DNA from: Phytohabitans rumicis
GTDB lineage: Bacteria > Actinomycetota > Actinomycetes > Mycobacteriales > Micromonosporaceae
Direction of reading: 5' to 3'
NCBI RefSeq assembly: GCF_011764445.1
Contig: NZ_BLPG01000001.1
Span: 8,919,316-8,983,315 of the forward strand
DNA length: 64,000 nt
In this document: piece by piece, positions 11,885-43,146 of the stretch
Layout: every line of letters begins with the position of its first letter
Numbering within the stretch: the stretch's first letter is position 1
Notes under the pieces: generated by a model
Databases searched by the model: none
Told to the model about the DNA's origin: nothing
Seen by the model: only the letters and a program-made list of their open reading frames with translations
Translations under genes and position numbers: made by a program

Positions 11885-12896
11885 TGGCCGGCCTGATCGG
11901 TAGGCAGATTCAGCTGGCGTCGCGCCCGGGTGCCGGCTGGCCGACGCCGGAGCACTTCCGGCTCGTCGAGGTGCCGGTGCCCGACCTGGGCGCCGGGCAG
12001 GTGCTGGTGCGCAACACGGCGATGTCGGTCGACCCGTACATGCGCAACCGCATGAACGACGTGAAGTCGTACGTGCCGCCGTTCCAGATCGACGCCCCGC
12101 TCGACGGCGCCGCGGTCGGCGAGGTCGTCGCGTCGCAGTCGCCCGACCGCAAGGTGGGCGACATCGTGGCGCACGGCCTGGGCTGGCGCGACTACGCGGT
12201 GCTGGACGCCGCGCAGACCAAGGTGTTGGACACCGCGATCGCGCCGGCGACCGCGTACCTCGGCGCGCTCGGCGGGATCGGGCTCACCGCGCAGGTCGGG
12301 CTCGTGGAGATCGCCCAGCTGAAGCCGGGCGAGACGGTCTTCGTGTCCGGGGCGGCGGGCGCGGTCGGCAGCCTCGCCGGGCAGATCGCCAAGCTGCGCG
12401 GCGCGGGCCGGGTCATCGGCAGCGCCGGCTCCCCGGCCAAGGTGGCGTATCTGCGGGAGTTGGGCTTCGACGCGGCGTTCGACTACCACGACGGGCCGAT
12501 CCGGGACCGGCTGCGCGAGGCGGCGCCGGACGGCATCGACGTCTACTTCGACAACGTCGGCGGCGAGCAACTGGAGGCGGCCCTCGGGGCGCTGCACGTG
12601 CACGGCCGGGTGGCGCTGTGCGGCGCGGTCGCGCAGTACAACGCGACCGAGCCGACCCCGGCGCCGCGCAACCTTGCGCTGGCCATCACCAAGCAGCTGA
12701 CGCTGCGCGGGTTCATCGTCACGTCGTACAGGCATCTGGCGGCGGAGTTCACCGCCGAGCTGGCCGGCTGGCTGCGCGACGGCACGGTCCGCTTCGACGA
12801 GACCATTGTGGACGGTCTGGAGAACGCGCCGGCCGCGTTCCTCGGCATGCTGCGCGGGAGAACGTCGGCAAGATGCTGGTACGGATAGAGAGTTAG
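11884..12896 (+). CDS. NADP-dependent MDR oxidoreductase (alkenal/curcumin reductase type), apparent frameshift at C-terminus
   Basis: The ATG overlaps the ohr stop. The protein matches the zinc-free leukotriene B4 dehydrogenase/CurA group: [12 protein letters not shown] near residue 47, nucleotide-binding [20 protein letters not shown], and [14 protein letters not shown]. These reduce reactive alkenals, which fits an ohr operon dealing with lipid peroxidation (inference). The frame as read stops at 12888 with an abnormal tail. Adding one G at the GGG run 12856-12858 restores the family C-terminus ([12 protein letters not shown]) and a stop at 12896, giving 337 residues. The lesion is probably a sequencing artefact. 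Confidence 0.88.
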
Positions 12897-13561
12897 TCGC
12901 AGGGCGTGCCGTTGACGGCGCACGCGCTCGGGTCGTTGTCCTGCCCCCACCGCTCGAACTGGAACCGCAACGGCACCGACGAGCGGGCCGGCACCTCGAC
13001 CCCACTGGTGAAGACGTACGCGGGCCCCAGGCGCTGAAGCGTCGCCTGGGGCGCCCCTTCGACCCAGAACGTGTGCAGCCGCCCCACGTTCGTGGGGAAC
13101 TGCAGCCGGACCGTCCAATCCCGGCCGCTGCCCGAGGAGTTGGTGACCAACACCTCGGCGATGAACGAGTCGCCGTACGAGTTGAGGACCCGGTAGTCGC
13201 CGGTCACGGCGGGCGGCGCGGGCGGCGCCTGCGTGGTCGGCGGCTTCGCCGTGGTACGCCGGGCGACCGGCGAGCGCGACGGGGACGGCTTGGGGGACGC
13301 GCTCGGCGACGGGCTGGGCGTCGTGGTCCCCGGGATGTCGGCGGGCACCGGTGGCGGTTCGTACGCGGGCGGTGTCCACGCGTAGTTGATGGATGCGCGC
13401 GGCCGGACCTCGTCGTCTTCCCGCGCCTCGCCCGGGGTCAAAGTGACCGCCGCGAAAAGCGTCAACGCCACGGCGACGCCCAGCGCGGCCGGTGCCCACA
13501 GGACGAGGACCTCGGAGTTGCTGGGCTTCCCGAAGGGCCGGAAGTCGGGCCGGGTGCGCAC
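12893..13561 (-). CDS. Membrane-anchored protein with CBM2-like domain
   Basis: 222 residues from GTG 13561, preceded by GGGGAGA. A short cytoplasmic start, one membrane helix (VLVLWAPAALGVAVALTLFAAV), a proline/serine/threonine-rich linker, then a domain of about 100 residues resembling carbohydrate-binding module family 2 (YRVLNSYGDSFIAEVLVTN, DWTVRLQFP, conserved Trp and a C-terminal Cys pair). No catalytic domain is present. It may bind polysaccharide at the cell surface. Convergent with the MDR gene, overlapping its repaired 3' end by 4 bases. Confidence 0.75.
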   Translation of the reverse strand: MRTRPDFRPFGKPSNSEVLVLWAPAALGVAVALTLFAAVTLTPGEAREDDEVRPRASINYAWTPPAYEPPPVPADIPGTTTPSPSPSASPKPSPSRSPVARRTTAKPPTTQAPPAPPAVTGDYRVLNSYGDSFIAEVLVTNSSGSGRDWTVRLQFPTNVGRLHTFWVEGAPQATLQRLGPAYVFTSGVEVPARSSVPLRFQFERWGQDNDPSACAVNGTPCD

Positions 13562-21920: not shown

Positions 21921-24829
21921 ATGATGTATCGAATCTTGGGTCGGCTGATCATTGGCGCCGGTCCCGGAATAGATCTCCCCCGGGGCACCGGTTGTCGATC
22001 TTAGCGTTTCTGATGATCAACGCCAATGATCGGATTCCGACCGGTGAATTGCTGCGGGTTGCCTGGGGCAAAACAGATGTAGACGAGACGCAGTTATACA
22101 AATGCGTATCAAAGCTGCGGGGACTGCTGGCCACCATTGGTCGCGGCGACGATATCGTGACGCACTCCGGTTACGGGTACGAGCTCCGGGTCGCGCCGGA
22201 CGACCTGGACAGCCTGCTGTTCGAGCGGCTCCTGCGGGAGGCGGAGGCCGCCGTCGGCAACGGCACCGACGACGAGGCGCGGCTGCTGCGCGAGGCGCTG
22301 GCGCTCTGGCGCGGCCCGCACCCGCTGGACGGCATTCCCGGCGACTTCCCGCCCGGACTCGGCGACGATCTCCGGCGGCGCCGCAAGCGGGCCGTCGTCC
22401 GGCTGGCCGAGATCGAGCTCGGGCGGGGGCGGTACGAGTCGGTCGTCGCGGACCTCCAGGCGCTGACCCGGAACGACCCGACCGACGCCCGCCTGTGCCA
22501 GCTGCTGATGTTCGGGCTGTTCCGGTTGGGTCACGCGACCGAGGCGCTGGCCGCGTACGACCGGTACGCGGCGGCGCTGGAGCACGAGGCGGCCGCCCCG
22601 CCCGATCCGCGGCTGCGCCGGCTGCGGTACGCGGTCGCCAGCAACGACGAGCGGGCTGCCACCGAGCACGCGGGGGTGAACGCGCCGCGGCGGTGGCCGC
22701 TGCCCCGGCAGGGCGCGGTGCCCCGGCAGCTCCCGATGGACGCCGCCGACCTCGTCGGCCGGGACCGGCAGGTCTCCGAGGCGGGCCGGCTGCTGCGCCA
22801 GGGAACGGCGGGGGCGCCGCCGGTCGTCGTGCTGACCGGACCGGGCGGCATCGGCAAGACCGCCCTCGCGGTCCGGGTCGGCCACGCCGTCCGGCAGCGG
22901 TACCCGGACGGCCAGGTGTACGTCGAGCTGCGCGGCACCGGCACCGAACCGGCCGTGACCGACGAGGTGCTGGCGCAGGTCCTGCGCGCGTTCGGCATCG
23001 TCGACGTGCCGGAGTCGGCGGACGAGCGGCGCGGGCTGTACCGGACCCTGCTCGGCGACAAGCGGGTGCTGCTGGTGCTGGACGACGCCCGCGACGAGGC
23101 CCAGATCCGCGACCTCATGCCCGGCAACCCCGGGTGCGGGGTGCTGGTCACCGCGCGGCACCGGCTGCCGGACATCGCCGGCGCGCACCACCTGCCCAGC
23201 CTGGAGCCGCTGGCGCCGCCCCAGGCCGCCGAGCTCTTCCGGCGCATCGTGCGCCGTTCGGCGGTGGATCCGCTGACCGAGCCGGCCGCCACGCGTACCA
23301 TCGTCGAGCTCTGCGCCGGCCTGCCGCTGGCGATCTGCGTGGCCGCGGCGCTGCGGGCCAGCGACCCGGACCGCAGCGCCGCGGAGCTCGCGGAGCGCCT
23401 GGCCGACGAGAAGCTCGGCGCGCTCGTGTACGGCGACCGCAGCGTGGCGCGCAGCATCGGCGCCGGCTTCGAGCGGCTCGACGAGGACGCCCAGCTGCTC
23501 TTCGTCGGCCTGGGGTTGGTGCGGGTGGTCGACGTCGGCGTCTGGACGGCGGCCGCGATCCTGGCCGGCCGGGGCGCCGACCCGGTGGCGGCGCTGGACC
23601 GGCTCGCGGCGTGCGGGCTGCTGCAGCCGGCCACCGTCGGGCGGTTCCGGCTGCACGACCTGACCCGCCAGTACGCGCGGGCCCGCGCCGAGCGGCACAT
23701 CCTGGCCGCGGCCGAGCGCCAGGCGCTGGCCGAGCGGGTCTACGGCGCCCTGCTGACGCTGTGCCGGCGCGCGCACCGGGCCACGTACGGCGGGGACTTC
23801 GAGGTGGTCCACGGCGACACCCCGGACTGGCTCGCGCCGCGCGCGCTGCTGGCCGACGTCGACGCGGCGCCCTCCGAGTGGTACGAGCGGGAGCGGCAGA
23901 ACATCCGGGCCGCGGTGCGCCACACGGCCGACCTCGGCCTGGCGGAGCTGTGCTGGGACCTGGCCATCTCGACGCACGAGTTCTACAACGTGCGGGCGTA
24001 CCTGGACGAGTGGCACGCCACCCACCGGTGCGCCCTGGACGCCTGCCGGCGGGTGGGCAACGTGCGCGGCGAGGCGGCGATGACGGCGATCCTGGGCCAG
24101 CCGGCGCTGCTCGCCAGCGGCCGTCCGGGCGTGGCCGGGCCGCGCGAGCTGGCGTCCGCCGCGGCGGCGTTCGAGCGGTGCGGCGACGCGCACGGGCAGG
24201 CTATCGCGCTGCGTACGCTGGCCAACGCGCTGCGCCGGCGGGGCCGGTTCGCCGACGCCATCCAGACGTTCCGGCGCGCCCTGGAGCTGTACGAGGAGAG
24301 CGGCGACACGGTCGGCGCCTGGCAGTCGCTGCGGTACATCGGGCAGACCCACCTCGACCTGGGGGACAACGAGGAGGCGCTGCGGGTGCTGACCGCCGCC
24401 GCCGAGATCGCCCGGCCGTCGGGGCAGCCGCGCCTGCTGGCCCAGACCGCGTACTGGCTCGGCCGGGTGCACCTGGCCCGCCGCGATGTGTCGCCGGCGG
24501 TGGCGCAGTTCCAGTACGTCTTCGCCGCGGCCGGCGACGCCGACGGCATCGGCCGGGCGTACGCCCTGCACGGGCTCGGCGACGCGGCCCGGCTCGCGGG
24601 CGACGGCGAGCTGGCCGCCCGCCACCTGGAGTCGGCCCTGGAGCTGGCCCGGCGCGGCCACGACGCGGTGCTGGAGGGGCGGATCCACCAGTCGCTGGCC
24701 GAGCTGCACCAGGCCAACGGCCGTGGCCGGGAGGCGACCCAGGAGCTGGACCAGGCGGTGTCGTGCTTCGACAGCGGCAACGCGCTCTTCCTGCAGAATC
24801 AGGTGCTGGAGGCGCTCGGTTCGTCGTAG
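21921..24829 (+). CDS. AfsR/SARP-type regulator: winged helix, BTAD, NB-ARC ATPase, TPR; apparent frameshift near start
   Basis: 969 residues if one C is added to the run at 21977-21981. The DNA-binding start MMYRILGRLIIGAGPGIDL in one frame then continues as PPGHRLSILAFLMINANDR in the other, matching the family. As read, translation would have to begin at TTG 21992 and lose the first strand. Domains: winged helix (about 1-95), BTAD (about 100-245), NB-ARC with Walker A GPGGIGKTAL and Walker B VLLVLDDARDEAQ (about 270-560), then TPR repeats. Such proteins activate secondary-metabolite or stress genes. Two TTA leucine codons (22001-22003, 22094-22096) suggest control by a bldA-type tRNA. The first 200 bases are markedly less GC-rich than the rest. 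Confidence 0.88.
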
Positions 24830-27998: not shown

Positions 27999-28913
27999 AT
28001 GGTTGACGTTGCCGTGACCGCCGAGCCGCTGGCCCGGGCGGCGGTGCTGGTTCGGTTCACCCGGCCGTGGTTCTGGCCGCTCGGCTGGGCCGGGGCGTAC
28101 CTGGGGGCGGTGCTGGCCACCCGGACCTGGCTGCCGCCCGCGCACGCCGTACCCGAATCGCTGGCCGCCATGGTGGTCCTCGGCCCGCTGGTGTGGGGCG
28201 CGGTGCTCGCCGTCAACGACCGGTACGACCTGCCGAGCGACCGGCGCAACCCGCGCAAGGCCACCGCGCCGCTGGTGACCGGTGAGGTGACCGAGGCCGA
28301 CCTGACCCGGTGGGGCCGGCTCTTCGCGGTCGTGGCGATGGCGGTGGCCCTGGCGGTCGGGCCGGCGTTCACCGCCGGGACGGGCGCGGTGCTGCTGCTG
28401 GGCTGGCTCTACAGCGCCCCACCGGTACGGCTCAAGGCCCGCCCGGGCGCCGACGTGGCCGTCAACGCCGTCGTGGTGGGCGTGCTGGGACCGCTGGCGG
28501 GATGGTCCCTGTACCGGCCGGTCGGCGACTTCCCGCCCGTCATGGTCGCGCTGGGCCTGCTGCTGGCCGCCGCCCTGTACCTGCCCACCACGGTCATGGA
28601 CCTGGACGCCGACCGCGGCGCCGGTGACGCGACCGCCGCCGTACGCTGGCGGCCGCGCCTGTGCTACCGCCTCGGCGTGACACTGTGGACCGCCGCGATC
28701 GCACTGTGGCTGGCCTGCTGCCACCTGGAGCTGCTGGTTCCGGGCCAGGCGTCGCCGACCCAGGACCTGATGGCGCCAGTCCTGCTGGCCGGGTACGCCG
28801 TGCTGGCCCGCCGGCCGTCCATCCCACGCATGGCGGTCGTGTCGCTGCTGTTCGCACTGCCAGCCGCCGACTTCCTCTCCACCTGCGTAGCCACCACCCC
28901 CACCCCGCCCTAA
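27999..28913 (+). CDS. UbiA-family prenyltransferase
   Basis: 304 residues with about 8-9 predicted membrane helices. Both aspartate-rich motifs of the family are present: NDRYDLPSDRRNPRK (NDxxDxxxD type, about residue 70) and MDLDADRGAGD (about residue 202). They bind the Mg-diphosphate of a polyprenyl donor. Acceptors include quinone precursors, chlorophyll and decaprenyl-phosphate sugars; the acceptor here cannot be told. It lies just before the pterin-like cluster but reads toward ribA, with a palindrome between. Confidence 0.9.
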   Translation: MVDVAVTAEPLARAAVLVRFTRPWFWPLGWAGAYLGAVLATRTWLPPAHAVPESLAAMVVLGPLVWGAVLAVNDRYDLPSDRRNPRKATAPLVTGEVTEADLTRWGRLFAVVAMAVALAVGPAFTAGTGAVLLLGWLYSAPPVRLKARPGADVAVNAVVVGVLGPLAGWSLYRPVGDFPPVMVALGLLLAAALYLPTTVMDLDADRGAGDATAAVRWRPRLCYRLGVTLWTAAIALWLACCHLELLVPGQASPTQDLMAPVLLAGYAVLARRPSIPRMAVVSLLFALPAADFLSTCVATTPTPP

Positions 28914-28985
28914 CGCCCTCCGCCCTCCGCCCTCCGCCGGGCGTCCTCCCCGTCGATGCTGGGCGTCGTCCCCCGACGCCCCTCC

Positions 28986-29051
28986 CGTCGATCAAGGGCA
29001 TACGGTCGTGGTTTAGAGATCAAAGCACGACCATTTGCCCTTGATCGACGG
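28986..29051. repeat. Dispersed palindrome family A, copy 3 (encodes RibA tail)
   Basis: GTCGATCAAGGGCATACGGTCGTG and its near complement CACGACCATTTGCCCTTGATCGAC lie between the convergent ubiA-like and ribA-like genes. Read on the minus strand, the right arm and loop encode the last residues of the GTP cyclohydrolase (SIKGKWSCFDL, stop at 29013-29015). Confidence 0.85.
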
Positions 29052-29738
29052 GGACGGGGCGCGCGGCGGGGCGGGAGAGCGAGGGCTACTCGCGGCGGGG
29101 AGGGGGATGGGGAGGTCGAGGGTGTGGGCCGAGTGGGTGGCTTTGGTGGCGAGGTAGCGGGCGTTCGCGGCGGACAGGTGCACCTCCGTCGGGACGACCT
29201 CGCTCACCTCCACGCCCAACCGGCTCAGTTGTGCGCTTTTGTCCGGGTTGTTGCTGAGCAACGCCACCCGGTCGGCGCCCAACGCCAGCAGCATCTGGGC
29301 CGCCACCGTGTAGTCGCGCTCGTCCTCGCCGTGCCCGAGCGCCAGGTTCGCCTCGTACGTGTCGAGCCCCGTGTCCTGCAGCGCGTACGCGTCGACCTTG
29401 GCGTACAGGCCGATGCCCCGGCCCTCCTGGCGCAGGTAGAGCAGGAACCCACCCGCGTCGGTGATCCGCTCCACCGCCTCGCGCAACTGTGGACCGCAGT
29501 CGCAGCGCTGGCTGCCGAACACGTCCCCGGTCAGGCATTCGCTGTGCGGCCGGACGAGGGGCAGCGCGGTCCGCCAGTCGCCGAGGCCGAGGGCCAGGTG
29601 TTCCTTGCCGTCCGCGAGCCCGTCGAAGGTGAAGACGCGCGCGGTGGTGGCGTACCCGTCCGCGAAGCGCAGCGGCACCGTCACCTGCCGCCGGACCGTG
29701 GCCGGCGCCAGGCGGACCTCGGGTGGCGATTGGGTCAT
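29013..29738 (-). CDS. GTP cyclohydrolase II (RibA-type), cluster copy
   Basis: 241 residues from ATG 29738. It converts GTP to 2,5-diamino-6-ribosylamino-pyrimidinone phosphate and formate. Zinc ligands are in HSECLTGDVFGSQRCDCG, and the catalytic region is RQEGRGIGLYAKVDAYALQD. The tyrosine equivalent to E. coli RibA Tyr105 is kept, as in true GCH II. No DHBP-synthase domain is fused. It diverges from a RibD-type reductase rather than sitting in a rib operon, so it probably feeds a specialised pteridine or pyrimidine pathway. The last 11 or so residues are encoded by a dispersed palindrome and are unlikely to matter. Confidence 0.92.
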   Translation of the reverse strand: MTQSPPEVRLAPATVRRQVTVPLRFADGYATTARVFTFDGLADGKEHLALGLGDWRTALPLVRPHSECLTGDVFGSQRCDCGPQLREAVERITDAGGFLLYLRQEGRGIGLYAKVDAYALQDTGLDTYEANLALGHGEDERDYTVAAQMLLALGADRVALLSNNPDKSAQLSRLGVEVSEVVPTEVHLSAANARYLATKATHSAHTLDLPIPLPAASSPRSPAPPRAPSPSIKGKWSCFDL

Positions 29739-29760
29739 CGGCTCTCCCTGTACGTTCATA

Positions 29761-29793
29761 ACTCTCCGAGCAGACCAGACACTCTCCGAGCAG
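29761..29793. promoter_or_regulatory. Tandem direct repeats in the ribA-ribD_C divergent promoter region
   Basis: ACTCTCCGAGCAG occurs at 29761-29773 and again at 29781-29793. The 20-base period places both copies on the same DNA face. They are centred in the 88-bp gap between divergent starts, suggesting a shared operator. The regulator is unknown. Confidence 0.6.
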
Positions 29794-29826
29794 GCCAACT
29801 GTCCCGACGGCAAGGAGGCGCCAGCC

Positions 29827-30516
29827 GTGGTCGAGCGACCGTACATCCTGCTCAGTTGCGGCATGTCGATCGACGGCTATCTTGACACCGCGGCGGGGAC
29901 ACGGTTGCTACTGTCCAATGACGCCGACTTTGACCGAGTTGATGCCGTACGTGCCGGATGCGACGCGATCCTGGTCGGGGCGACCACGGTACGCCGGGAC
30001 AACCCGCGGCTGCTCGTGCGTTCCACCACCCGCCGGGAGGAACGGGTGGCGCGAGGGCTTCCGCCGACGCCGGTGAAGGTGACCGTGACCGGGCGCGGCG
30101 AGCTGGACCCGGCCGCGGAGTTCTTCGTGGCCGGCGACGTCGACAAGCTGGTCTACTGCGCGAGCCCGGCGGTGGCGGCGGCGCGCGAGCGGCTCGGTGC
30201 GGTGGCGACGGTGGTGGATGGCGGCGACCCCGTGGATCTGTGCCTGGTGGTGGCGGATCTTCATGCCCGCGGGGTGGGGCGGCTGATGGTCGAGGGCGGC
30301 GGGGCGATACACACCCAGTTCCTCACCGGGGGCCTGGCCGACGAGTTGCACCTGGTCATCGCCCCGTTCTTCGTCGGCGACTCCCAGGCGCCGCGGTTCG
30401 TGCGCGACGGCACCTTCCCGTGGGGGCCGGACCGCCGGGCGGTCCTGGCCGAGGTACGCCAGATCGGCGACGTGGTGCTGCTCCGGTACGCCCTGTCGGA
30501 GCGTTTCGAGAGCTGA
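29827..30516 (+). CDS. RibD C-terminal-type pyrimidine reductase (DHFR-like fold)
   Basis: 229 residues from GTG 29827, preceded by AAGGAGG. Motifs of the RibD_C reductase: SCGMSIDGYLDTA, DAVRAGCDAILVGATTVRRDNPRL and GRLMVEGGGAIHTQFLTGGLADELHL. It uses NADPH to reduce the ribosyl side chain of the GTP cyclohydrolase II product. The deaminase domain of RibD is absent. With the adjacent ribA-like gene it could make a diamino-ribitylamino-pyrimidinone, as in archaeal or fungal flavin routes. Convergent with the flippase-like gene, whose frame reads 256 bases into its 3' half. Confidence 0.9.
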   Translation: MVERPYILLSCGMSIDGYLDTAAGTRLLLSNDADFDRVDAVRAGCDAILVGATTVRRDNPRLLVRSTTRREERVARGLPPTPVKVTVTGRGELDPAAEFFVAGDVDKLVYCASPAVAAARERLGAVATVVDGGDPVDLCLVVADLHARGVGRLMVEGGGAIHTQFLTGGLADELHLVIAPFFVGDSQAPRFVRDGTFPWGPDRRAVLAEVRQIGDVVLLRYALSERFES

Positions 30517-31454
30517 ACGAACCAGCGCACCACCAGCACGCCCGCGCCCGGCAGCGCCGCCGCGAAGGTGAGCACCCCGTACACCACCGCGACCGTCAGG
30601 CCCAGGCTGGCGCTCATCCCGGCCGCCGCGAACGCCCACGCGGTGACGCCCTCCCGCGGTCCCCAGCCGCCCACGTTCAGCGGCAGCATCATCGACAGCA
30701 GCGCCAGCATCAGCAGCGGCACGAGTTGGGGGAGCGGCACCGAGGCCCCGGCGGCCCGCGCCGCGACCACGAACGTGGCCAGGTGGCCGACCAGCACGAG
30801 CGCGGAGGCGAGCACGATTCCCGGCCATCTTCCGCGCGCCAGCAGCCCGCGCCGCACGTCGGAGCCGGCGGTACGCAGGGCGCGGGTCCACCGCGAGGCG
30901 CCCCGCCGCAGCAGCGCCCACCCGCCGGCCACGGCGGCCAGCCCGAGCGCCGCGAGCACGGCCAGCGCCGCCCCGGGGACCTCGACGAGACGGGTTCCCG
31001 ACACGACCAGCACGCCTACCCCGAGGGCGACCACCACGGCCTGTCCCGCGGAGCGTTCCAGGACCACGGCCCGCACGCCCCGGCCCACGTCGCCGGTGTC
31101 CTTGCCGTGCCGCACCGCCCGGTGTACGTCGCCGACGATGCCCCCGGGTAGCGCCGCGTTGAGGAAGAGCGCGCGGTACGAGTCCGCGACCGCGCTGCCC
31201 AGCGGGAGCCGGATCCCCAGGCCGCGAGCCACGATGCACCACCGCCACGCGCTCAGCACCGTGGTCGCCAGGCCGATCCCGCAGGCCACCAGCAGCGTGC
31301 CGCCGTCGATCACCCGCAGCCCGTCCCGGAGCGCGCCGGTGCCCAGCCGCCACACCAGTAGCGCGAGGATGCCCGCCCCGCCGAGCAGCTTTACCCAGGC
31401 CCACACCGTCCGCCTCACGGGAACACATACGGTGACGAGCCCATTTGGGTTCAT
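30261..31454 (-). CDS. Lysylphosphatidylglycerol-synthase-TM/UPF0104-type membrane protein (flippase-like)
   Basis: 397 residues. About eight membrane helices fill residues 1-320, with family patterns LGGAGILALLVWRLGTGALRD, ALFLNAALPGGIVGDVHRAVRHGKD, RAVVLERSAGQ and LPLNVGGWGPREGVTAWAF. Related proteins translocate or attach groups to lipids at the inner membrane. The ATG overlaps the methyltransferase stop (ATGA). No stop is met at the expected end near residue 315, so a basic tail of about 80 residues is encoded antisense to the RibD_C gene. Last gene of a five-gene minus-strand operon. Confidence 0.82.
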   Translation of the reverse strand: MNPNGLVTVCVPVRRTVWAWVKLLGGAGILALLVWRLGTGALRDGLRVIDGGTLLVACGIGLATTVLSAWRWCIVARGLGIRLPLGSAVADSYRALFLNAALPGGIVGDVHRAVRHGKDTGDVGRGVRAVVLERSAGQAVVVALGVGVLVVSGTRLVEVPGAALAVLAALGLAAVAGGWALLRRGASRWTRALRTAGSDVRRGLLARGRWPGIVLASALVLVGHLATFVVAARAAGASVPLPQLVPLLMLALLSMMLPLNVGGWGPREGVTAWAFAAAGMSASLGLTVAVVYGVLTFAAALPGAGVLVVRWFVQLSKRSDRAYRSSTTSPIWRTSARTARRSGPHGKVPSRTNRGAWESPTKNGAMTRCNSSARPPVRNWVCIAPPPSTISRPTPRA

Positions 31455-32221
31455 TCGAAGTTGGCCAGCAGGTCGCTGTGGTGCACGACGGCCGCGAATC
31501 CGTCCGCGAGCCGGCGCGAAAGATACGCCGCCGCCGCCGGCCCGGCCAGTTCCGGACGCTGCTCGACGGCGGCGCCGACCCATCCGCGCAGCCACTCGGC
31601 CGCGAGGTCGGCCCGTGCGGGGCCGAGCCGCCACGGGCTCGGCGCCACCCGCACGGCCATGCCGAGCCGGGTGAACGCCGCGGCCGCCGCGTCGACCGCG
31701 TCGGGGCCGAGCAGGTCCCGCCCGCCGGTGCGGCGGCGCTGGTGCTCGTTGAACGCCGCCTCGATCGACGCGTCCAGCGGGTCGGCCGGGGTGAGTTCCA
31801 CGCGGCCGGTCACGGAGATGGTCAGCAGCGCGGGGCACCCCGCGCCCGCGCACGCCTCGACCAGCCGGTCCAGCTCCGCACGGGTGAGCAGGTCCAGCAG
31901 CGCGGACGCGGTGACCAGGTCGGCGCCGGCGAGGTCGGTGGCGGTCAGCCGGGTGACGTCCGCCTGCCGGGTCTCCACCGAGACGCCGGCGGGCAGGCCG
32001 GCCGCGGCGAGGGCGAGCAGGTCCGGGTCCGCGTCGTACAGCACCCAGTGCTGCGGGCCGGGCAGCCGGCCGGCGAGCCAGCGCCCCATCGAGCCGGTGC
32101 CGCAGCCCAGGTCGCGGATCACCTTCGGTGCCGCGCCGAGCAGGGGTTCGAGCAGCGAAAGCGCGCGGGCGTCGGCGTCGGCCGGTTCCCGCAGCGCCAG
32201 CCAGGTCGGGCTGAACGCCAT
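31451..32221 (-). CDS. Class I SAM-dependent methyltransferase
   Basis: 256 residues. The SAM-binding motif I is VIRDLGCGTGSMGRWLAGRL (about residues 33-52), followed by the acidic motif HWVLYDADPDLL, ADVTRLTATDLAGADLVTASALLDLLT, and a downstream LLTISVTGRVEL strand. Methyl acceptor unknown. Start and stop overlap both neighbours, so it is translated within the PTPS-GT4-flippase operon. The product probably methylates an intermediate of that cluster (inference). Confidence 0.88.
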   Translation of the reverse strand: MAFSPTWLALREPADADARALSLLEPLLGAAPKVIRDLGCGTGSMGRWLAGRLPGPQHWVLYDADPDLLALAAAGLPAGVSVETRQADVTRLTATDLAGADLVTASALLDLLTRAELDRLVEACAGAGCPALLTISVTGRVELTPADPLDASIEAAFNEHQRRRTGGRDLLGPDAVDAAAAAFTRLGMAVRVAPSPWRLGPARADLAAEWLRGWVGAAVEQRPELAGPAAAAYLSRRLADGFAAVVHHSDLLANFE

Positions 32222-33237
32222 CAGATCATTCCCACCACGTCGGTCACCGCGCGGGCGGTGACATCCCAACCGGTCAAGGTCTCGCGCCGGGCGCGCGCGG
32301 CGGCCCGCAGGCGCTCCCGGGTGTCCGGCTCGCCGAGCCAGCGCCGCAGCGCCCCGGCCAGCGCCGCCACGTCGCCCGGCGGCACCAGCAGCCCCGGCAC
32401 CGCGCCGCTGGGCGCGTGCCCCAGCGCCTCCGGCACCCCGCCCACGGCCGTGGCCAGCACCGGCACGCCGCGGGCCAGGGCCTCGGTCACCACCATCCCG
32501 TACGTCTCCGCGTGCGACGCCAGCACCAGCAGGTCGGCGGCGGCGTAGCGGGCGTCCAGGTCGGCGCCGACCTGCGCGCCCTCGAACCGCACCCGCCCGT
32601 CCAGCCCGTGCGCGGCTACCAGCCGGTCCAGCCGGTCCGGGTCGCCGGCGCCGGCGCACAGGCACTCCCAGGGCCACTCGGCGACCTTCGCCAGCGCCGC
32701 GACCAGCACGTCGTGCCCCTTGCGCGGGGTCAGGGCGGCGACGCACAACAAGCGCCTGCCGTCCGGCGTACCCGATGCGAGTGATGCGCGGTCGGCTCCC
32801 GGCGCGGCCACGTGGACCCGTGCGGGCGCCAGCCCGTGGTGCTCGACCAGCCGGCGCGCGGTCGTGGCGCTGGTCGCGACGACGGCCGCCGCGGCCCGCA
32901 GCGTGGCCCGCTCCCGGGCGTCCAGCTCCGCGGCCTCGCCGGGGGTCAGGCCGGTCTCGTCGGCGAGCGGCAGGTGCACCAGCACGGCCAGGCGCAGCCT
33001 GGCCGCCGCCGGCACGACCACCTCGGGCGCCGCGCACGCCACCAGGCCATCCACGAAGACAGCAGATCCATCTGGTACGCCAAGCAACGCACCGGCCAGC
33101 GCGGATCGTTCGGCATCCCCCGCCCAGGGCCAGTCCCCGGGCACGAAGACCTCGCGCACACCGAGCTCCTGGCACACCCGCCGGTTGTAGTTGGTGCCCC
33201 CGCTCGGGCCGCTCAGCTCCGGTGCAACGAACCTCAC
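32221..33237 (-). CDS. Glycosyltransferase family 4-type
   Basis: 338 residues from GTG 33237, overlapping the PTPS stop (GTGA). GT-B fold, shorter than usual in the N-terminal half. The acceptor side begins [19 protein letters not shown]. The donor domain has [68 protein letters not shown] (E-x7-E nucleotide-sugar site) and [13 protein letters not shown]. Donor and acceptor are unknown. It probably glycosylates the cluster product or its lipid carrier. Confidence 0.9.
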
Positions 33238-33632
33238 AGCCCGCGCTCGTAGGAGGCCCAGGCGATGTGCGACTCGTGCAGGGTGACCGTGATGCCGGTC
33301 AGGCCGCGGGCGCCCTCGCCGAGGTCGCCGGCGTGCACCCGGTCGGCGAGGCGGTCCGCGATGACCTTGGCGAGGGCCTCCGTCGACGTGTTGACCCCGG
33401 CGAACTCCGGCTCGTCGTCGAGGTTGCGGTAGTTGAGCTCGGCCAGCACGCCGCCCAGCTCCGCGGACGCCTTGCCGATGTCGACGACGATGTTGTCGGC
33501 GTCCAGTTCGGGTCGGCGGAATGTCGCGTCCACGACAAAGGTCGCCCCGTGCAAGCGCTGGGCGGGGCCGAAAACCTCGCCGCGGAAGCTGTGAGCGACC
33601 ATGATGTGGTCACGGACGGTGATGCTGAACAA
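33234..33632 (-). CDS. 6-pyruvoyl-tetrahydropterin synthase/QueD homologue
   Basis: 132 residues if translation starts at TTG 33632. This keeps the first strand [15 protein letters not shown] and follows GGAGA. The T-fold pterin-binding family is recognised by the zinc histidines in VAHSF and [13 protein letters not shown], the acidic NLDDEPEF and [15 protein letters not shown], and the C-terminal [14 protein letters not shown]. Family members act on dihydroneopterin triphosphate, giving pyruvoyl-, carboxy- or related tetrahydropterins. No queuosine genes (queE, queC, queF) are near, so a different pterin-like substrate is likely. Lies 5 bases after the dehydrogenase gene. Confidence 0.88.
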
Positions 33633-33637
33633 GGGCG

Positions 33638-34615
33638 TCAGTCTCCATATCTCACGACGTGGCACAGGGCCGGCAGGTCGCCGCCGGCCAGCCGGGGCAG
33701 CACCTCGGGCAGGTCGTCGAAGTCGCACTCGCCGCTGATCAGCGCGTCGAACGCCGGGTCGGCGAGCAACTCCAGGGCTAGGGCCAGCCGGTCGGCGAAG
33801 CTGCGCCGGCCCCGCTGCGCCGGCGACACCGTACCCACCTGGCTGCCGCGTACGACCAGCCGGCGGGAGTGGAAGTGCTCACCCAGCGGCACGCTGACCC
33901 GGCGGTCGCCGTACCAGCTCAGCTCGACGACGGTGCCCTCCGGGGCGAGCAGCTCCAGCGACCGGGCCAGCCCCGCCTCGGTGGCGCTGGCGTGGACGAC
34001 CAGGTCGCGCTCGCCGTCCGCGTCGCCGGGCAGCGCGAAGTCGACGCCGAGCGCCGTCGCCACCTCCGCCCGCCCGGGGTCGACGTCGACGAGCTGCACC
34101 CGTACGCCGGGGAAGCGGGCCAGCAGGGCGGCCACGCAGCTGCCGACCATGCCGGCTCCGACCACCGCGACCCGGTCGCCGACCAGGGGAGCGGCGTCCC
34201 AGAGGGCGTTCACGGCGGTCTCCACGGTGCCGGCGAGCACGGCCCGGCGAGCCGGTACGGAGTCCGGCACGGTGGTGACCGCGGTGGCCGGCACGGCGTA
34301 CCGCGTCTGGTGCGGGTACAGGCAGAAGACGGTCCGGCCGAGCAGCGCCGGCGGGCCCTCCTCGACCACGCCGACGTTGAGGTAGCCGTACTTCACCGGG
34401 CCCGGAAAGTCGCCCTCCTGAAAGGGGGCGCGCATCGCCGAGTGCTGGCTCGCCGGCACGCCGCCGCGGAACACGAGCGTCTCGGTGCCCCGGCTCACGC
34501 CCGAGTACAGAGTCCGTACGAGCACCTGGTCGGGGCCGTGCCGGGCGACCGTGACCGGGCGGATCTCGCCGTGACCGGGAGTGCGGAGCCAGAACGCGCG
34601 GTCACGCAGCGTCAT
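33638..34615 (-). CDS. MDR-family (zinc-type) alcohol dehydrogenase, cluster member
   Basis: 325 residues from ATG 34615. N-terminal GroES-like domain ([21 protein letters not shown]) and Rossmann domain ([39 protein letters not shown]). The pattern [12 protein letters not shown] is typical of dehydrogenases next to PTPS genes in streptomycetes (recalled, not searched). The classical structural-zinc cysteines are not obvious, so zinc dependence is uncertain. First gene of the minus-strand operon; divergent from the CDP-alcohol phosphatidyltransferase. Confidence 0.87.
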
Positions 34616-34726
34616 TGGCGTCCTTCCTCAAACCCGGCTGAACCGAAATCGCCTGTCGACCGTTCAACAGGTGAGCTGCGGTTAACCATACGCGGCGACG
34701 GGAACGGCTAAGACGACTGCGGAGGA

Positions 34727-35453
34727 ATGTTGACTGTCAGCGATCGCCCCATCGCCACACCCTCGGTGGACGGACCGACGGTGGGCATGGCGGTCCAGTT
34801 CGTCCTGCTGGGGGCCCTCGCCGCCGGAGTGGGCCTGGGCGCCGCCGGATGGCTCGCCGGAACGGCGTACGCCGGCGTCACCTGGGTCGTGCTGAGCCGC
34901 GCCATGCGCCGGTCCGGCATGAGCCTGCTCGGTCCGGCCAACCAGGTGACCCTCGCCCGCGCGACGCTGGTCGGGGTGTGACGGCGCTGACGGCCGACTC
35001 ACTCCGCGGGGCGGTGCCGATCGCGGCCCTGGTCACCCTGGCGGCCGTCGCGCTGGCGCTGGACGCGGTCGACGGGCAGGTCGCCCGGCGTACCGGCTCC
35101 ACGTCGGTGCTCGGCGCGCGCTTCGACATGGAGGTCGACGCCGTCCTGATCATGGTGCTGAGCGTCGTCGTCGCCGGGTCGCTGGGCCCCTGGGTGCTGG
35201 CGATCGGCGCCTTCCGGTACGTCTTCGTCGCGGCCGCCTGGGCGCTACCCTGGCTGCGCGGTTCGCTGCCCCTCGCTTCTCCCGCAAGGTGGTAGCCGCC
35301 ACCCAGGGCATAGTCCTGGTGGTAGCCGCCTCCGGCGCCCTGCCCTACCCGGCCGCACTGGCGATCGTCGCCCTATCCCTGGCGGTTCTCACCTGGTCCT
35401 TCACCCGCGACACCGTCTGGCTCTGGCACCACCGCGAGATCCGCTCCCGTTGA
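34727..35453 (+). CDS. CDP-alcohol phosphatidyltransferase, two apparent frameshifts
   Basis: Three overlapping frames give one 242-residue protein when one G is added at 34973-34976 and one C at 35269-35272. Start MLTVSDRPIA... leads to GPANQVTLARATLV, then LDAVDGQVARRTGSTSVLGARFDMEVDAV, which contains the full catalytic signature DGx2ARx8Gx3Dx3D, then RKVVAATQGIVLVVAASG and a final membrane helix. These enzymes transfer a phospho-alcohol from CDP-diacylglycerol or similar, so a lipid-linked step is implied. Both lesions repair in the same direction in G/C runs, so an intact gene is likely. The stop TGA lies in a palindrome. Confidence 0.83.
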
Positions 35454-35511
35454 TCATGAAGTTATCCGCGGAGATGATCTCCTTCGGCGCGATAGCTTCA
35501 TGATCAACGGG
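35446..35511. terminator. Palindrome holding the stop codons of two convergent genes
   Basis: Left arm CCCGTTGATCATGAAG (from 35446) pairs with CTTCATGATCAACGGG (to 35511), extending inward with one mismatch. The TGA of the CDP-alcohol phosphatidyltransferase (35451-35453) and the repaired TGA of the glycoside hydrolase (35504-35506 on the minus strand) lie at equivalent positions in the two arms. The core GATCATGAAGTT resembles the hairpin at 17699-17766. Confidence 0.75.
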
Positions 35512-37412
35512 ACGAGCGGAGGACGCGGACGCCGTATGCCGGGAGGTTGACGGTGGCGGTGGGGGTGCCGGTGTCGAGGTCCGCCAGGGGGTGCCCTCCA
35601 GGGTGACGGTCAGCGGGTCTGGGGATTGGCTGACCAGCCAGATGAACTGGGTGCCGTCGTCGCGGACCAGGCGGTCGACCAGCACGCTCGGGTCGCCGGA
35701 GCGGACCGGGGGGCGTACGCCGGCGTGGTCGGCGAGCGCGGCGTACAGGCGCCAGGTCTGCTCGGGGTTGACCTCCGGGGTGGCCGCCGCCATCGCTTCC
35801 AGGGGTAGGTGCACAGCACCAGCGCGCCCGTCCCCACCGCGCGCCGCAGCAGGGCCGGCCGGCCTTCCGCGTCGGTGGCGATCACCTCGGCGTCCACGGG
35901 GTCCACCGGCAGGTACGCGCGCTGGTGCGGGTTGCCGCCGGCGGTGAACGACAGCACGGTGCCGGCGGCCAGCGACCCGAGGTCCCGCTGGAACGTGAAC
36001 TCCACCGTGTCGGCGGTGATCCGGTCGACGATGCCGTACCGGAGCCGGTGGCGTACGCCGAACAGCGCGTTGAGCCCGGCGTACCAGGGGCCGCGCTGGT
36101 TGTCGGTGCCGCCGTGGCAGTACGAGACGTACACGGTCGCGCCGGCGTGGGCGAGGGCCTCCAGGCGGCGCCAGCCGGGGCCGGTCAGCTGCTTGGCCGA
36201 CGGCAGCAGGTAGAGCCGGCAGTCGTCGGTGATGCCGCCGCTCTCCCGGACGATCCCGGCGGGCACGCCGGCCTCGCGGGCGGTCAGGTACGCCTGCTCG
36301 ATCGCGGCCAGCGCGGCGGCCTGGTCGCCGAGGTCGGTGAACGGGTGCTCGCTGTCCACGTGGGCCGGCACCACGATGCCGACCTCGGTGTCGGCGCGCG
36401 CGCACCGCGCCAGGTCGACCGCGTCCAGCACGGTCCGGAAGTCGGCCAGTTCGCGCAGCGCGGACTTCGGCGCGCCGTTGCTGTCGGTCACCCCGAAGTG
36501 CAGCTCGAACGGGTGGTGCGAGTACGGCGGCTCGTCGATCAGGTCGTCGAAGTCGGTGTTGTTCCAGGCGACCCAGCCGGCGGAGCCGCCCAGCAGCGAG
36601 TTGTGCAGAACCTGGCGGTAGTAGTGGCCGAGGTTCTCCTCCGAGACGAAGTCGGTGGACGCGCCGAACTCCTCCAGCACCACCGGCTTGCCGGCGACCG
36701 TGGCCAGCTCGCACAGGAACGCCGTGCGCAGGTGCTGGCGGACCGGGTCGTCGCCCATCGGGTACACGTGTGGGCCGACCCAGTCGACCAGCGGGCCCAG
36801 CTCGCGCAGCCGGTAGCCGCTCGGGCTGGCGTTGGTCTCCACGGTCCACGCGCCGTCGCCGATGGACACCGGCTGGTGCGCGCCGCCGGCCCGCAGGCCC
36901 TGGATGACCAGCTGCGCCCAGGCGGTGACGGTGGGCACGGTGCCGAGGCCGCCGTACAGCGGCATCTCGTTGGACAGCAGCCAGCCGGCGACGGCGGGAT
37001 GGCTGGCGAAGCGGCGGGCCATCATCTCGGCGAACCACGCCTGCCGCCCGACCAGCCACACGTCGGCGTACAGGTCGCGGCCGTCCCGCCAGGCCGGGTC
37101 CCAGTTCTCGCCGGACATGTGCCCGACGATGAGCGTCGGCACGGTGCGCATGCCGATCGCCTCGTGCAGGTCGAGGAAGTCGGCGAACCGGTCGAGCAGC
37201 GTCTCGTCCAGGGTGTCCGGGGTGGGCATGAAGTCCGGCCAGAAGAAGAAGGACCGGGTCATCGTCAGGCCGTGGTCGGCCAGCACCTGTAGTTCCTTCG
37301 CCACGGTCTGGCCGTCGTAGCGCGGCCACATGCGTGGCCCGCCCACCCGGGACCAGAAGTTCACTCCCAGCCAGACGCGGTCGGCGGGAGGCAGCGCGAA
37401 GGCGCGACGCAT
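35504..37412 (-). CDS. Glycoside hydrolase, clan A (GH5-like) with C-terminal domains, two apparent frameshifts
   Basis: 636 residues after adding one base at each of 35802-35805 and 35587-35591. ATG 37412 follows AGAGGAG. No signal peptide, so it likely acts inside the cell. A TIM barrel runs over about residues 1-370, with FWSRVGGPRMWPRYD, the acid/base region GWLLSNEMPLYGG (Asn-Glu), HVYPMGDD, and the nucleophile-type PVVLEEFGAS. Further domains resemble a GH trimerisation-like fold and a small beta domain ending NLPAYGVRVLRSSR. The substrate is probably a beta-mannoside or beta-glucoside oligosaccharide imported by the divergent ABC transporter (inference). The repaired stop is the second stop in the palindrome. 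Confidence 0.82.
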
Positions 37413-41269: not shown

Positions 41270-42220
41270 ATGGCACTGAAGGTCGACAACCTCCGGGTGT
41301 ACTACCGGACCCTGCGCGGCGACGTACGGGCGCTCGACGGCGCCACGTTCACCGTCGCCGACGGCGAGATCATGGGGCTGGCCGGCGAGTCGGGCTGCGG
41401 CAAGTCCACGTTGGGCAAGAGCCTGGTCCGGCTGGACGGCCGCATGAAGCACGTCGGCGGCACGGTCGAGCTGGACGGCCAGGTCCTGCCGATCGCGGAC
41501 GCGCAGGCGATGAACGCGTTCCGGTTCAAGACCGTCTCGGTCATCCCGCAGTACGCGATGAGCGCACTGAACCCCACCCGCAAGATCGGCAAGATGATCT
41601 CCGAGCTGCTGACCTCGCGCGGGTTCGACTACGCGGCGATCCGCCCCGAGCTGGAACGGCGGCTACGCCTGGTGGGCCTGGCCAAGGAGGTGCTCGACAA
41701 CTACCCGATCGAGCTGTCCGGCGGGATGAAGCAGCGGGTGGTCATGGTGCTGTCCACATTGCTCGATCCCCGGCTGCTCATCGCCGACGAGGTCACCTCC
41801 GCACTCGACGTGTCGACCCAGCGGGCGGTGGCCGAGGCGCTCGTGGAGTTCCGCGACCGCGGCTTCGTCACCAGCATGATCGTGGTCACCCACGACATCT
41901 CGCTGGTGTACCAGATCGCCGACACCATCATGGTCATGTACGCCGGAAAGCTCGCCGAGAAGGCCCCGGCCGAGGCGGTGGTCAACGCGCCGCTGCACCC
42001 GTACACGCAGATGCTGATCTCGTCGCTGCCCGAGGTGGGGGTGCGGCACGCCGACAAGCCGCTGACCGGCATCCCGGGCCGCCCACCGGGGCTGCTCAAA
42101 CCGCCGGCCGGCTGCCGGTTCCGGGCCCGCTGCCCGTACGCGTTCGACAAGTGCGCGCAGGAGCCACCGTTCGTGGAGGTCGACGACGAGCACTACGTGG
42201 CCTGCTGGAAGGTGGCGTAG
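41270..42220 (+). CDS. ABC transporter ATP-binding protein, DppD/OppD type
   Basis: 316 residues. Walker A GESGCGKST, signature LSGGMKQR, Walker B LLIADEVTSALD and H-loop VVTHD are complete. The C-terminal oligopeptide/dipeptide extension (HPYTQMLISSLPEV...GCRFRARCPYAFDKC) has the cysteines that bind an iron-sulfur cluster in some DppD proteins. Start two bases after the preceding stop. Confidence 0.95.
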   Translation: MALKVDNLRVYYRTLRGDVRALDGATFTVADGEIMGLAGESGCGKSTLGKSLVRLDGRMKHVGGTVELDGQVLPIADAQAMNAFRFKTVSVIPQYAMSALNPTRKIGKMISELLTSRGFDYAAIRPELERRLRLVGLAKEVLDNYPIELSGGMKQRVVMVLSTLLDPRLLIADEVTSALDVSTQRAVAEALVEFRDRGFVTSMIVVTHDISLVYQIADTIMVMYAGKLAEKAPAEAVVNAPLHPYTQMLISSLPEVGVRHADKPLTGIPGRPPGLLKPPAGCRFRARCPYAFDKCAQEPPFVEVDDEHYVACWKVA

Positions 42221-42222
42221 CG

Positions 42223-43146
42223 ATGCTGGAGCTCGACGGGGTCGGCAAGACGTACAAGGTCGGCGCGTTCGGCGGCCGCGAGATGGCCGCGCTGCGCGAC
42301 GTCAGCTTCGCCGTACGCCCCGGCGAGGTGGTCTCGCTGATCGGGGAGAGCGGCAGCGGCAAGACCACCCTCGGCCGGCTCGTGCTGCGGCTCGCCTCGG
42401 TCACCCGTGGCGCGATCCGGTTCGACGGCACCGACGTGTCCCGGCTCAGGGGCCGGCGGCTGACCGGCTACTACCGCCGGGTGCAGGGCGTCTTCCAGGA
42501 CCCGTTCAGCAGCTACAACCCCATCTTCAAGGCGGACCGGGTGCTGCACGCGATCCGCGCCGGCTTCTTCCCGGGCGTGCCGGCGGCGCGCTGGCGGGAG
42601 AAGGTGGACGCCGCCCTGGAAGCCGTCCGGCTCGACCCGGCGCAGGTGCTCAACAAGTACCCGCATCAGCTCAGCGGCGGCCAGTTGCAGCGACTGCTGA
42701 TCGCGCGGGCGCTGCTGCTGGACATCGAGCTGCTCGTCGCCGACGAGATCATCAGCATGCTGGACGCGTCGACGCGCATCGACGTACTCAATCTGCTGGC
42801 CGACCTGAAGGCCCGCGGCCTCGGGATCCTGTTCATCACGCACGACCTGTCCCTGGGCCACTACCTCAGCGACCGGGCGGTGATCCTGCGCCGCGGCGTG
42901 GTGGTCGAGACCGGGCCGGCGGACAAGGTGTTCGGCGACCCGCGGCACCCGTACACGCGGACGCTGCTGGCGTCGGTGCCGCAGCTGCACCGCAAGTGGC
43001 GCAGCCGGCCCCCTATCGACTCCGCGGATCCTTGTGCCTACCATGGGCTACGCGCCGACGGCAGTTGCGAGGCCGACGGGAAGGTGCCGGCGCTGGCCAG
43101 CGTGGATGGCGACCATCTCGTGGGGTGCGCGCGGCTTGGTCAGTAA
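42223..43146 (+). CDS. ABC transporter ATP-binding protein, DppF/OppF type
   Basis: 307 residues. Walker A GESGSGKTT, Q-loop VFQDPFSSYNP, signature LSGGQLQR, and H-loop FITHD are present. Walker B reads LLVADEIISMLD, one residue off the usual EPTSALD form but with the catalytic Glu kept. It forms the ATPase heterodimer with the preceding gene. Last gene of the operon; hairpins follow. Confidence 0.95.
   Translation: MLELDGVGKTYKVGAFGGREMAALRDVSFAVRPGEVVSLIGESGSGKTTLGRLVLRLASVTRGAIRFDGTDVSRLRGRRLTGYYRRVQGVFQDPFSSYNPIFKADRVLHAIRAGFFPGVPAARWREKVDAALEAVRLDPAQVLNKYPHQLSGGQLQRLLIARALLLDIELLVADEIISMLDASTRIDVLNLLADLKARGLGILFITHDLSLGHYLSDRAVILRRGVVVETGPADKVFGDPRHPYTRTLLASVPQLHRKWRSRPPIDSADPCAYHGLRADGSCEADGKVPALASVDGDHLVGCARLGQ

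Follow-up and report, generated by a model that had tools for sequence, protein, structure and literature searches.

A variant of the orphan SCO6650-SCO6655 locus in Phytohabitans rumicis, and the exchange of RibA type against a creatininase-family neighbor among its relatives

Introduction

The closest described relatives of the gene cluster reported here, which lies in a stretch of 64,000 nucleotides from Phytohabitans rumicis (contig NZ_BLPG01000001.1, positions 8,919,316 to 8,983,315; hereafter, the window), are the genes SCO6650 to SCO6655 of Streptomyces coelicolor. SCO6650, a PTPS-like protein, is reportedly devoid of zinc and of the catalytic triad. Spoonamore and Bandarian are said to have found in 2006 that SCO6655 makes a formylated nucleotide because of Met120, and that a Met120Tyr change restores the normal product. 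SCO6655 has been listed as a GTP cyclohydrolase (GCH) II (PMC2853524). Our searches of openly licensed papers for SCO6650 and for the gene set returned no description, and no function or product of the cluster was found in that literature, which cannot prove absence. To our knowledge, no product has been assigned to SCO6650-SCO6655 or to the window cluster.

A first-pass annotation of the window had suggested that similar gene sets exist in streptomycetes. Indeed, SCO6650-SCO6655 is the reference locus, and the window cluster is a variant of it. The cluster encodes a GCH II (RibA), a RibD_C reductase, a PTPS-like protein, a dehydrogenase of the MDR (medium-chain dehydrogenase/reductase) superfamily, a GT4 glycosyltransferase (GT), an S-adenosylmethionine (SAM)-dependent methyltransferase (MT), a multi-spanning membrane protein, and a CDP-alcohol phosphatidyltransferase (Table 1). 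We consider it probable, with considerable room for doubt, that the cluster is dedicated to a biosynthetic pathway of the same type as SCO6650-SCO6655, starting from GTP and having two routes to 2,5-diamino-6-ribosylamino-4(3H)-pyrimidinone 5'-phosphate (APy). Established here are the linkage of the genes, a two-way swap involving RibA, and a RibD_C-MDR-PTPS-GT unit in another class.

A widespread but patchy gene set

Fetched loci, genomes, and families of the comparison sample carry L-, G-, and f-numbers, respectively. Among 394 genomes drawn from the class, 59 had a PTPS match, and these came from 27 of 138 genera; two weak matches were set aside, and 56 class genomes besides the window's own gave 57 loci. 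Conservation past close relatives, on which the first-pass annotation had staked its proposal, was evident in the total of 138 loci (tblastn, E up to 1e-5; the window is counted among them, and two loci entered the sample twice). The same neighbors accompanied PTPS in 126-137 of them: MDR in 137, GT in 136, the CDP-alcohol transferase in 129, MT in 128, and the membrane protein in 126. Such recurrence argues that the grouping is not due to chance. As a sequence family, the membrane protein was present in 50 of 58 loci.

At least 585 relatives of the PTPS-like protein are found in species-representative genomes. The best 80 listed are all actinobacterial by title, and their source genera include Streptomyces, Actinacidiphila, Streptacidiphilus, Amycolatopsis, Actinomadura, Pseudonocardia, Sciscionella, Saccharopolyspora, Streptomonospora, and Micromonospora. 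PTPS occurs in 100 of 150 genomes (28 of 44 genera) of the window's own family; in the genus of G182, which we take to be Streptomyces, 51 of 121 genomes had a strong match and four more had a weak one only. The set is thus widespread but patchy. Although at least 585 loci encode the PTPS-like protein, we found no function or product of the cluster in print. Where RibD_C is missing from the Streptomyces-type gene order (L035, below), six genes in a row remain, in agreement with the tags SCO6650 to SCO6655; from this we infer which genes bear the tags in between.

The RibA type and a creatininase-family neighbor

The window RibA is a member of the GCH II family (PF00925, 185 bits vs. a cut-off of 23.3), and its three zinc cysteines are present (SECLTGD...RCDCG, aligned to 2bz0). 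Its Tyr codon at 29385-29387 aligns to Y105 of the Escherichia coli enzyme (AYALQD vs. RAYALQD of 2bz0), a residue that we take to be needed for deformylation. This aligned position is referred to as the switch. The class draw plus the window yielded 14 RibA proteins with Tyr and 32 with Met, His, Leu, or Gln at the switch; the named loci yielded 7 Tyr and 64 non-Tyr.

The switch is coupled to the presence of another gene. In the fetched DNA, a creatininase-family gene was found in none of the 21 Tyr loci and in 95 of the 96 non-Tyr loci (0/21 vs. 94/95 with repeats removed). RibA is near in 117 of the 138 loci; two of the 21 loci without it nearby have the creatininase. A further 20 loci from the window's family comprised 12 with Tyr RibA, one that was unreadable, and seven without RibA nearby, and they gave no creatininase matches. 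One seeming exception, L072, was dismissed: a 64% identical creatininase lies 13.9 kb from its PTPS, beyond the stretch first fetched. On a PTPS-MDR-GT tree, two supported independent pairs (three in all) differ in the switch, and the supported pairs follow the expected direction in nearly all random pairings; the relatedness among loci limits the force of the swap. The most instructive case is L164 (Pseudonocardia acidicola), which falls within a clade having His and creatininase, yet has a Tyr-type RibA fused to RibD_C and no creatininase match. RibA-RibD_C single open reading frames (ORFs) of 437-452 aa were found in or beside three PTPS-cluster loci (L164:14040-15350, L089:11394-12749, and L091:13263-14615). 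A histidine phosphatase between the membrane protein and RibA of L164 was rejected as a member of the set: seven loci match, the other six at 46-69 bits and some 7-10 kb from PTPS. None of the openly licensed papers searched described the swap, which appears to be unreported.

In the light of earlier work on formamidases and on GCH II, the swap can be explained as two routes, apparently interchangeable, to one diaminopyrimidine nucleotide. The creatininase-annotated enzyme BrbF of Sinorhizobium meliloti deformylates the formylated nucleotide (FAPy) to APy (PMC9478397, the main text of which does not contain the word coelicolor). The cluster creatininase is predicted to be a FAPy deformylase as well. 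The swap offers a testable explanation of an old oddity, a Streptomyces GCH II whose reaction reportedly ends with the formylated nucleotide: the enzyme encoded beside it probably completes the conversion.

The creatininase family also occurs apart from the cluster. Eleven class genomes without a PTPS match carry a creatininase that is 54-63% related, and in the eight such loci fetched no RibA match was found near it. In the window genome, a creatininase-like gene lies in two frames at L237:7628-8334, with a partial copy (12812-13186) on the other strand about 5 kb away; there was no match to RibA or other cluster genes in the surrounding 20 kb. The family is therefore not tied to FAPy alone.

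RibA, too, has relatives outside the cluster. The window genome has four GCH II genes, including a Tyr-type gene on contig C2 (L174:9387-10046) that is 84% identical to the window RibA; situated one gene from an ORF that looks by eye like a deaminase, it possibly belongs to a second RibA-based pathway. Four congeners (L180-L183) have the cluster with no RibA match in the fetched DNA, and three of these keep RibD_C nearby. L181:14528-16416 has, by eye, aminotransferase-like and sulfotransferase-like ORFs between the membrane protein and RibD_C. Seven of 14 genomes outside the window genus that are without a local RibA have a 70-80% identical one elsewhere, as does one of five congeners (83% identical).

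The RibD_C reductase

The window RibD_C lacks an N-terminal deaminase domain; Pfam detects RibD_C alone. Its best NCBIfam match is TIGR01508 (126.7 bits, below the cut-off of 186.45), and its best matches in the PDB include 5xux, 6p8c, and 2azn. As judged from these matches, it is nearest to the APy reductases, and it is predicted to reduce the ribosylamino- to the ribitylamino-pyrimidine. By the search thresholds, RibD_C is present in 20 of the 21 Tyr loci, and the remaining one is the L164 fusion. RibA, creatininase, and RibD_C stand together in 16 non-Tyr loci.

Is a reductase available in trans where none is local? We first searched with the Streptomyces-type RibD_C in 39 genomes (32 non-Tyr and seven without RibA nearby). 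Four had it at the known neighboring place (77-100% identity), and the other 35 gave 29-44% matches only. The window-type reductase, on the other hand, is present elsewhere in all 28 non-Tyr class genomes without a local copy (best copy, 51-71% identity). Four non-Tyr genomes of the class draw that have the Streptomyces type adjacent showed no window type elsewhere at E up to 1e-40. As a control within the class draw, the window-type reductase was found in 47 of 57 strong-PTPS genomes vs. 51 of 337 without a strong PTPS match. Because the reductase also occurs without the cluster, its in-trans link to the pathway is only an enrichment, uncorrected for relatedness. In one non-Tyr genome, two genes for the window-type reductase lie apart from the cluster (G377:C30:4656-5324 and G377:C5:16350-17012; 71% and 63% identical).

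These distributions bear on the possibility that the formylated nucleotide itself is used, that the creatininase performs some other hydrolysis, and that Tyr and non-Tyr clusters make different products. Such a division would accommodate the association of Tyr with a local RibD_C, which most non-Tyr loci do not have, and the NCBIfam scores of the creatininase, which is nearest to MftE (142 bits; ArfB, 38 bits). However, the downstream genes are common to both types, and the activity of BrbF (PMC9478397) provides a precedent for deformylation by a creatininase-like enzyme. Given also the 16 non-Tyr loci with all three genes and the reductases elsewhere in 28 of 28 genomes, we think this possibility unlikely.

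A core that extends beyond the class

Outside the class, matches came from 31 genomes of the same phylum, 19 of them in family f58, and one locus each was fetched from 18 of the 31. In all nine fetched loci of f58, which belongs to another class, RibD_C, MDR, PTPS, and GT occur in this order; RibA is beside them in one. The f58 PTPS keeps the HGH motif and not the Cys. Within the actinomycetes, the diverged loci L087, L088, and L090 had MDR, PTPS, and GT as the only cluster genes found. A 3.8-kb contig from family f60 (L254) has RibA, RibD_C, the membrane protein, GT, and PTPS. The other eight out-of-class loci gave no MDR or GT match, and two of them gave no tblastn match at all. The six others (f88, f68, and f62) have an ordinary-looking PTPS, with Cys and HGH, which in two f88 loci shares its stretch with RibA and a weak RibD_C match. 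Given the gene content of f58 and of the diverged loci, RibD_C, MDR, PTPS, and GT look like an old core, to which the lipid-type genes seem to have been added or from which they seem to have been lost. The four-gene unit appears to be unreported in the openly licensed papers searched.

With this core in view, we regard it as quite unlikely that RibA and RibD_C are spare genes for the supply of riboflavin or F420 that happen to adjoin a glycolipid module with which they have nothing to do. Of the 138 loci, 117 have RibA nearby, RibD_C is directly in line with MDR-PTPS-GT in nine of nine fetched f58 loci, the two enzymes are fused in three loci, and RibD_C has no deaminase domain. To be set against these points are the four GCH II genes of the window genome, the absence of RibA and of RibD_C each from part of the loci, the four of five congeners without a dedicated RibA, and the occurrence of the window-type reductase without the cluster.

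The PTPS-like protein and the MDR

The PTPS-like protein matches PDB 3d7j (SCO6650) over its whole length (4.5e-70). Two zinc His residues are kept (H14 and H28), and the third is replaced by Ala30; in the alignment to 2g64, the catalytic Cys has become Ala24 and the Asp-His pair Asn67-Tyr68. Glu120, invariant in a 29-row PTPS alignment, may correspond to the glutamate that anchors the pterin edge in PTPS.

These substitutions make it extremely unlikely that the cluster belongs to a queuosine/7-deazapurine or tetrahydrobiopterin pathway with a true QueD or PTPS; on residues and scores, we reject such membership. The protein does have a Pfam PTPS domain, and QueD is its best NCBIfam match, but at 35.2 bits that match is far below the cut-off of 89.25, and the first enzyme of the cluster is GCH II, not GCH I. 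The first-pass annotation had further stated that the other rib, queuosine, and folate genes are absent; the check covered the cluster and ten flanking genes, a part of the window, and no que genes were found there.

Zinc-dependent MDR alcohol dehydrogenases hold their catalytic zinc with Cys and His-Glu ligands. The window MDR is without the usual zinc-ligand motifs and instead has SRGTE and KYGY, which are invariant or nearly so in 29 sequences (mean column identity of the alignment, 72%). Seven f58 relatives resemble it, and since the motifs are missing even there, the notion of a zinc polyol dehydrogenase was discarded. The nearest NCBIfam entry is BchC (44.3 bits, far below its cut-off), an enzyme that oxidizes a hydroxyethyl side chain on a ring; Foldseek places the MDR model near threonine, butanediol, and idonate dehydrogenases. 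The structure models of the MDR and the GT predict fold class only. What the evidence fixes for this pair is that a T-fold protein carrying an invariant glutamate goes with an MDR devoid of the usual zinc motifs. With catalytic residues replaced in the one and zinc motifs missing from the other, their chemistry is not readable from the family names.

The glycosyltransferase, the methyltransferase, and the lipid-type genes

The AlphaFold model of the GT has a mean pLDDT of 93.4. Its best Foldseek match is MshA (3c48, 2.6e-19); further down are BshA and SenB, and all three act on small acceptors. In L091, GT and MT form one ORF. The MT, to judge by gene order, is probably at the SCO6652 position. 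SCO6652 is one of a group of conserved genes of unknown function that S. coelicolor upregulates in its second mycelium; its expression there is raised some 20-fold at 48 h and 17-fold at 72 h (log2 of 4.3 and 4.1 vs. the first mycelium at 16 h; PMC3610822). This induction hints at a developmental role.

Compared with Pfam and NCBIfam, the window membrane protein had no match at the thresholds applied; because its family member in L059 is an LPG_synthase_TM protein (PF03706), we term it LPG_synthase_TM-like. All eight genes named in the first-pass annotation are real, but three-frame translation shows the CDP-alcohol transferase to be broken over three frames, which either an assembly error or a recent lesion may explain. 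The CDP-alcohol phosphatidyltransferase motif D-x2-DG-x2-AR-x8-G-x3-D-x3-D is intact in its middle part and is conserved over 127 aligned loci. In three congeners (L180-L182), the gene is a long, uninterrupted open frame (277-404 codons); the match in a fourth congener covered only part of the query and lay in an open frame of 293 codons. Eighteen of 58 loci encode, no more than 10 kb from PTPS, a member of a protein family with CDP-transferase or sulfatase folds. Its member at L059:14321-16642 carries a CDP-alcohol transferase domain; that at L035:6270-7886 has a weak sulfatase match (20.9 bits, below the cut-off of 25) and is LtaS-like by eye. A 59% homologue of the L035 sulfatase-fold part is encoded far away in the window genome (L093:7343-8941).

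Might the CDP-alcohol and sulfatase-fold genes be the heart of a phospholipid or envelope glycolipid pathway, to which the pyrimidine genes supply a head group? We consider this very unlikely, as MDR-PTPS-GT is retained in L087, L088, L090, and all nine fetched f58 loci, where no lipid genes could be detected. It would nevertheless suit the frequency of the CDP-alcohol transferase (129/138) and the membrane protein (126/138), the 18 of 58 loci with the CDP-transferase/sulfatase-fold family (for which the Pfam evidence is weak), the distant homologue in the window genome, and the resemblance of the GT to PimA and PimB' among others.

A proposed pathway

We propose that the cluster serves a dedicated pathway, as follows. 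On the evidence of its sequence and of published biochemistry, the Tyr-type RibA would convert GTP to APy in one step; in relatives, the Met/His/Leu/Gln-type RibA would stop at FAPy, and a creatininase-fold formamidase would produce the same APy. A deaminase-free RibD_C, beside the cluster or elsewhere in the genome, would then reduce APy to its ribitylamino form. Reduction without deamination would depart from the riboflavin route and preserve the 2-amino-4-oxo edge, the part that a PTPS fold binds through its glutamate. The PTPS-like protein and the MDR could next form a pterin- or pyrimidine-type compound, which the GT4 enzyme may glycosylate and the SAM enzyme may methylate. In the weakest step of the scheme, the CDP-alcohol transferase and the membrane protein might attach the product to the membrane or move it across; the grounds for a lipid step are the CDP-alcohol gene and the CDP-transferase/sulfatase-fold family.

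The first-pass annotation had expected RibA and RibD_C to make a diamino-ribitylamino-pyrimidinone and had suggested a lipid-linked, glycosylated, and methylated product derived from a pterin or pyrimidine. In outline this reading holds. Both enzymes do belong to the set, and the RibA sequence predicts a diaminopyrimidine nucleotide. GT and MT are likewise in the set; the pterin, the lipid linkage, and the flippase role are conjectural.

A more specific version of the scheme, which we hold to be improbable, is a pterin route free of GCH I. After RibA has made APy, RibD_C would reduce C1' of the ribose and the MDR would oxidize C2', together equivalent to the Amadori step of GCH I; ring closure by the T-fold PTPS-like protein would yield a dihydroneopterin-type phosphate, which GT4 and MT would decorate, and, in Actinomycetes, the CDP-alcohol transferase would link the phosphate side to lipid, giving a membrane-borne methylated pterin glycoside. 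The absence of zinc motifs from the MDR weakens this redox version of the Amadori step.

Several observations count against the proposed pathway. The catalytic residues of the PTPS-like protein are replaced, the zinc-ligand motifs of the MDR are missing, and the fold neighbors of the GT include the lipid/sugar enzymes GlgM, HepE, PimA, and PimB'. In f58, the CDP-transferase, membrane-protein, and MT queries had no tblastn match in the nine loci. RibD_C is not nearby in 80 of the 96 non-Tyr loci, and its window type is found in 51 of the 337 class genomes lacking a strong PTPS match. Four of the five sampled congeners have a single RibA genome-wide, 53-54% identical. The swap itself rests on two to three independent pairs, with which a sign test cannot reach 0.05; the Streptomyces creatininase is nearer in NCBIfam to MftE than to ArfB, and creatininases occur in 11 PTPS-less class genomes and, as pieces, elsewhere in the window genome. 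If the proposal is true, purified enzymes would allow tests both of the natural substrate of 3d7j, a solved structure that is still an orphan, and of the opening reactions toward a new class of GTP-derived metabolites.

Layout of the locus

The window has a GC content of 72.1%, and the host genome measures 10.7 Mb in three contigs. The five-gene minus-strand run described in the first-pass annotation is confirmed: MDR, PTPS, GT, MT, and the membrane protein are contiguous, with ends that touch or overlap. RibA, too, is encoded on the minus strand, which brings the genes there to six, and RibD_C is transcribed divergently from it; the ORF of the membrane protein and the convergent 3' end of RibD_C share about 250 bp.

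Table 1. Coordinates of cluster genes and flanking repeats in the window.
Feature	Position	Strand	Evidence or remark
RibA, GTP cyclohydrolase II	29013..29738	-	Pfam PF00925 at 29016-29735, E=8.9e-55
RibD_C reductase	29827..30516	+	Pfam PF01872, 8.6e-40
Multi-spanning membrane protein, LPG_synthase_TM-like	30261..31446	-	L059 homologue is PF03706, 4.3e-29
Class I SAM methyltransferase	31451..32221	-	Pfam PF13649, 1.2e-10
GT4 glycosyltransferase	32221..33237	-	Pfam, 7.1e-32
PTPS-like T-fold protein, SCO6650 orthologue	33234..33632	-	Pfam PTPS at 33237-33632, 1.2e-23
MDR-superfamily dehydrogenase	33638..34615	-	Pfam, 3.6e-7, 30.6 bits, slightly below 31.8 cut-off
CDP-alcohol phosphatidyltransferase, three frames	34727..35453	+	Pfam CDP-OH_P_transf at 34978-35295, 5.6e-10
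31-nt inverted repeat, RibA end of cluster	28984..29052	.	Overlaps RibA stop codon
22-nt inverted repeat, CDP-transferase end of cluster	35445..35512	.	

When eight flanking genes were searched for in the 57 class loci, seven gave no match; for the other, an ABC-type gene at 42151-43146, there were only scattered matches of 24-36%. When the search was repeated with called genes, nine of 12 had no match among the matches listed, in which those at 22001-24826, 41270-42217, and 42223-43143 had matches of 27-36% only. The UbiA-family prenyltransferase at 27999-28913 adjoins the cluster; having no match in the 57 class loci, it was not accepted as a member. A riboflavin switch or other structured RNA was likewise rejected, as the window had no Rfam match at gathering scores.

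Comparison with known systems

The tetrahydrobiopterin glycoside pathway shares with the cluster a PTPS family protein, an oxidoreductase, and a pteridine glycosyltransferase (PMC5683033). It differs in starting from GCH I and in using a catalytic PTPS and sepiapterin reductase (PMC5041015), whereas here there are an altered PTPS-like protein and an MDR. As far as its consulted part goes, the latter paper, a review of PTPS paralogues, names PTPS-I to PTPS-III and does not mention this cluster.

BrbF resembles the creatininases of the non-Tyr relatives in its annotation and, if the prediction for them holds, in converting FAPy to APy. It differs in serving riboflavin synthesis, and its FAPy-making partner is not identified in that paper (PMC9478397); the window cluster has no creatininase-type gene. 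The archaeal start of riboflavin and F420 synthesis (ArfA/ArfB/ArfC) is similar in its separate deformylation, as proposed for the non-Tyr relatives, and in its deaminase-free APy reductase, TIGR01508 being the best match of the window RibD_C. It is different in that the cluster has GCH II rather than GCH III, PTPS, MDR, and GT as neighbors, and a RibD_C that scores below the TIGR01508 cut-off.

The SCO6650-SCO6655 locus remains the nearest. The window differs from it in having Tyr rather than Met in RibA, no cluster creatininase, and a RibD_C that is divergent from RibA; the Streptomyces form, with non-Tyr RibA and creatininase, is thus not the form found in the window. In L035, a Streptomyces-type locus, MDR-PTPS-GT-MT-membrane protein are followed by RibD_C and creatininase on the other strand and then by RibA. 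The features held in common are a full-length orthologue of the PTPS-like protein, a divergent CDP-alcohol transferase, and the order MDR-PTPS-GT-MT-membrane protein, then RibA, which the Streptomyces relatives and the window share.

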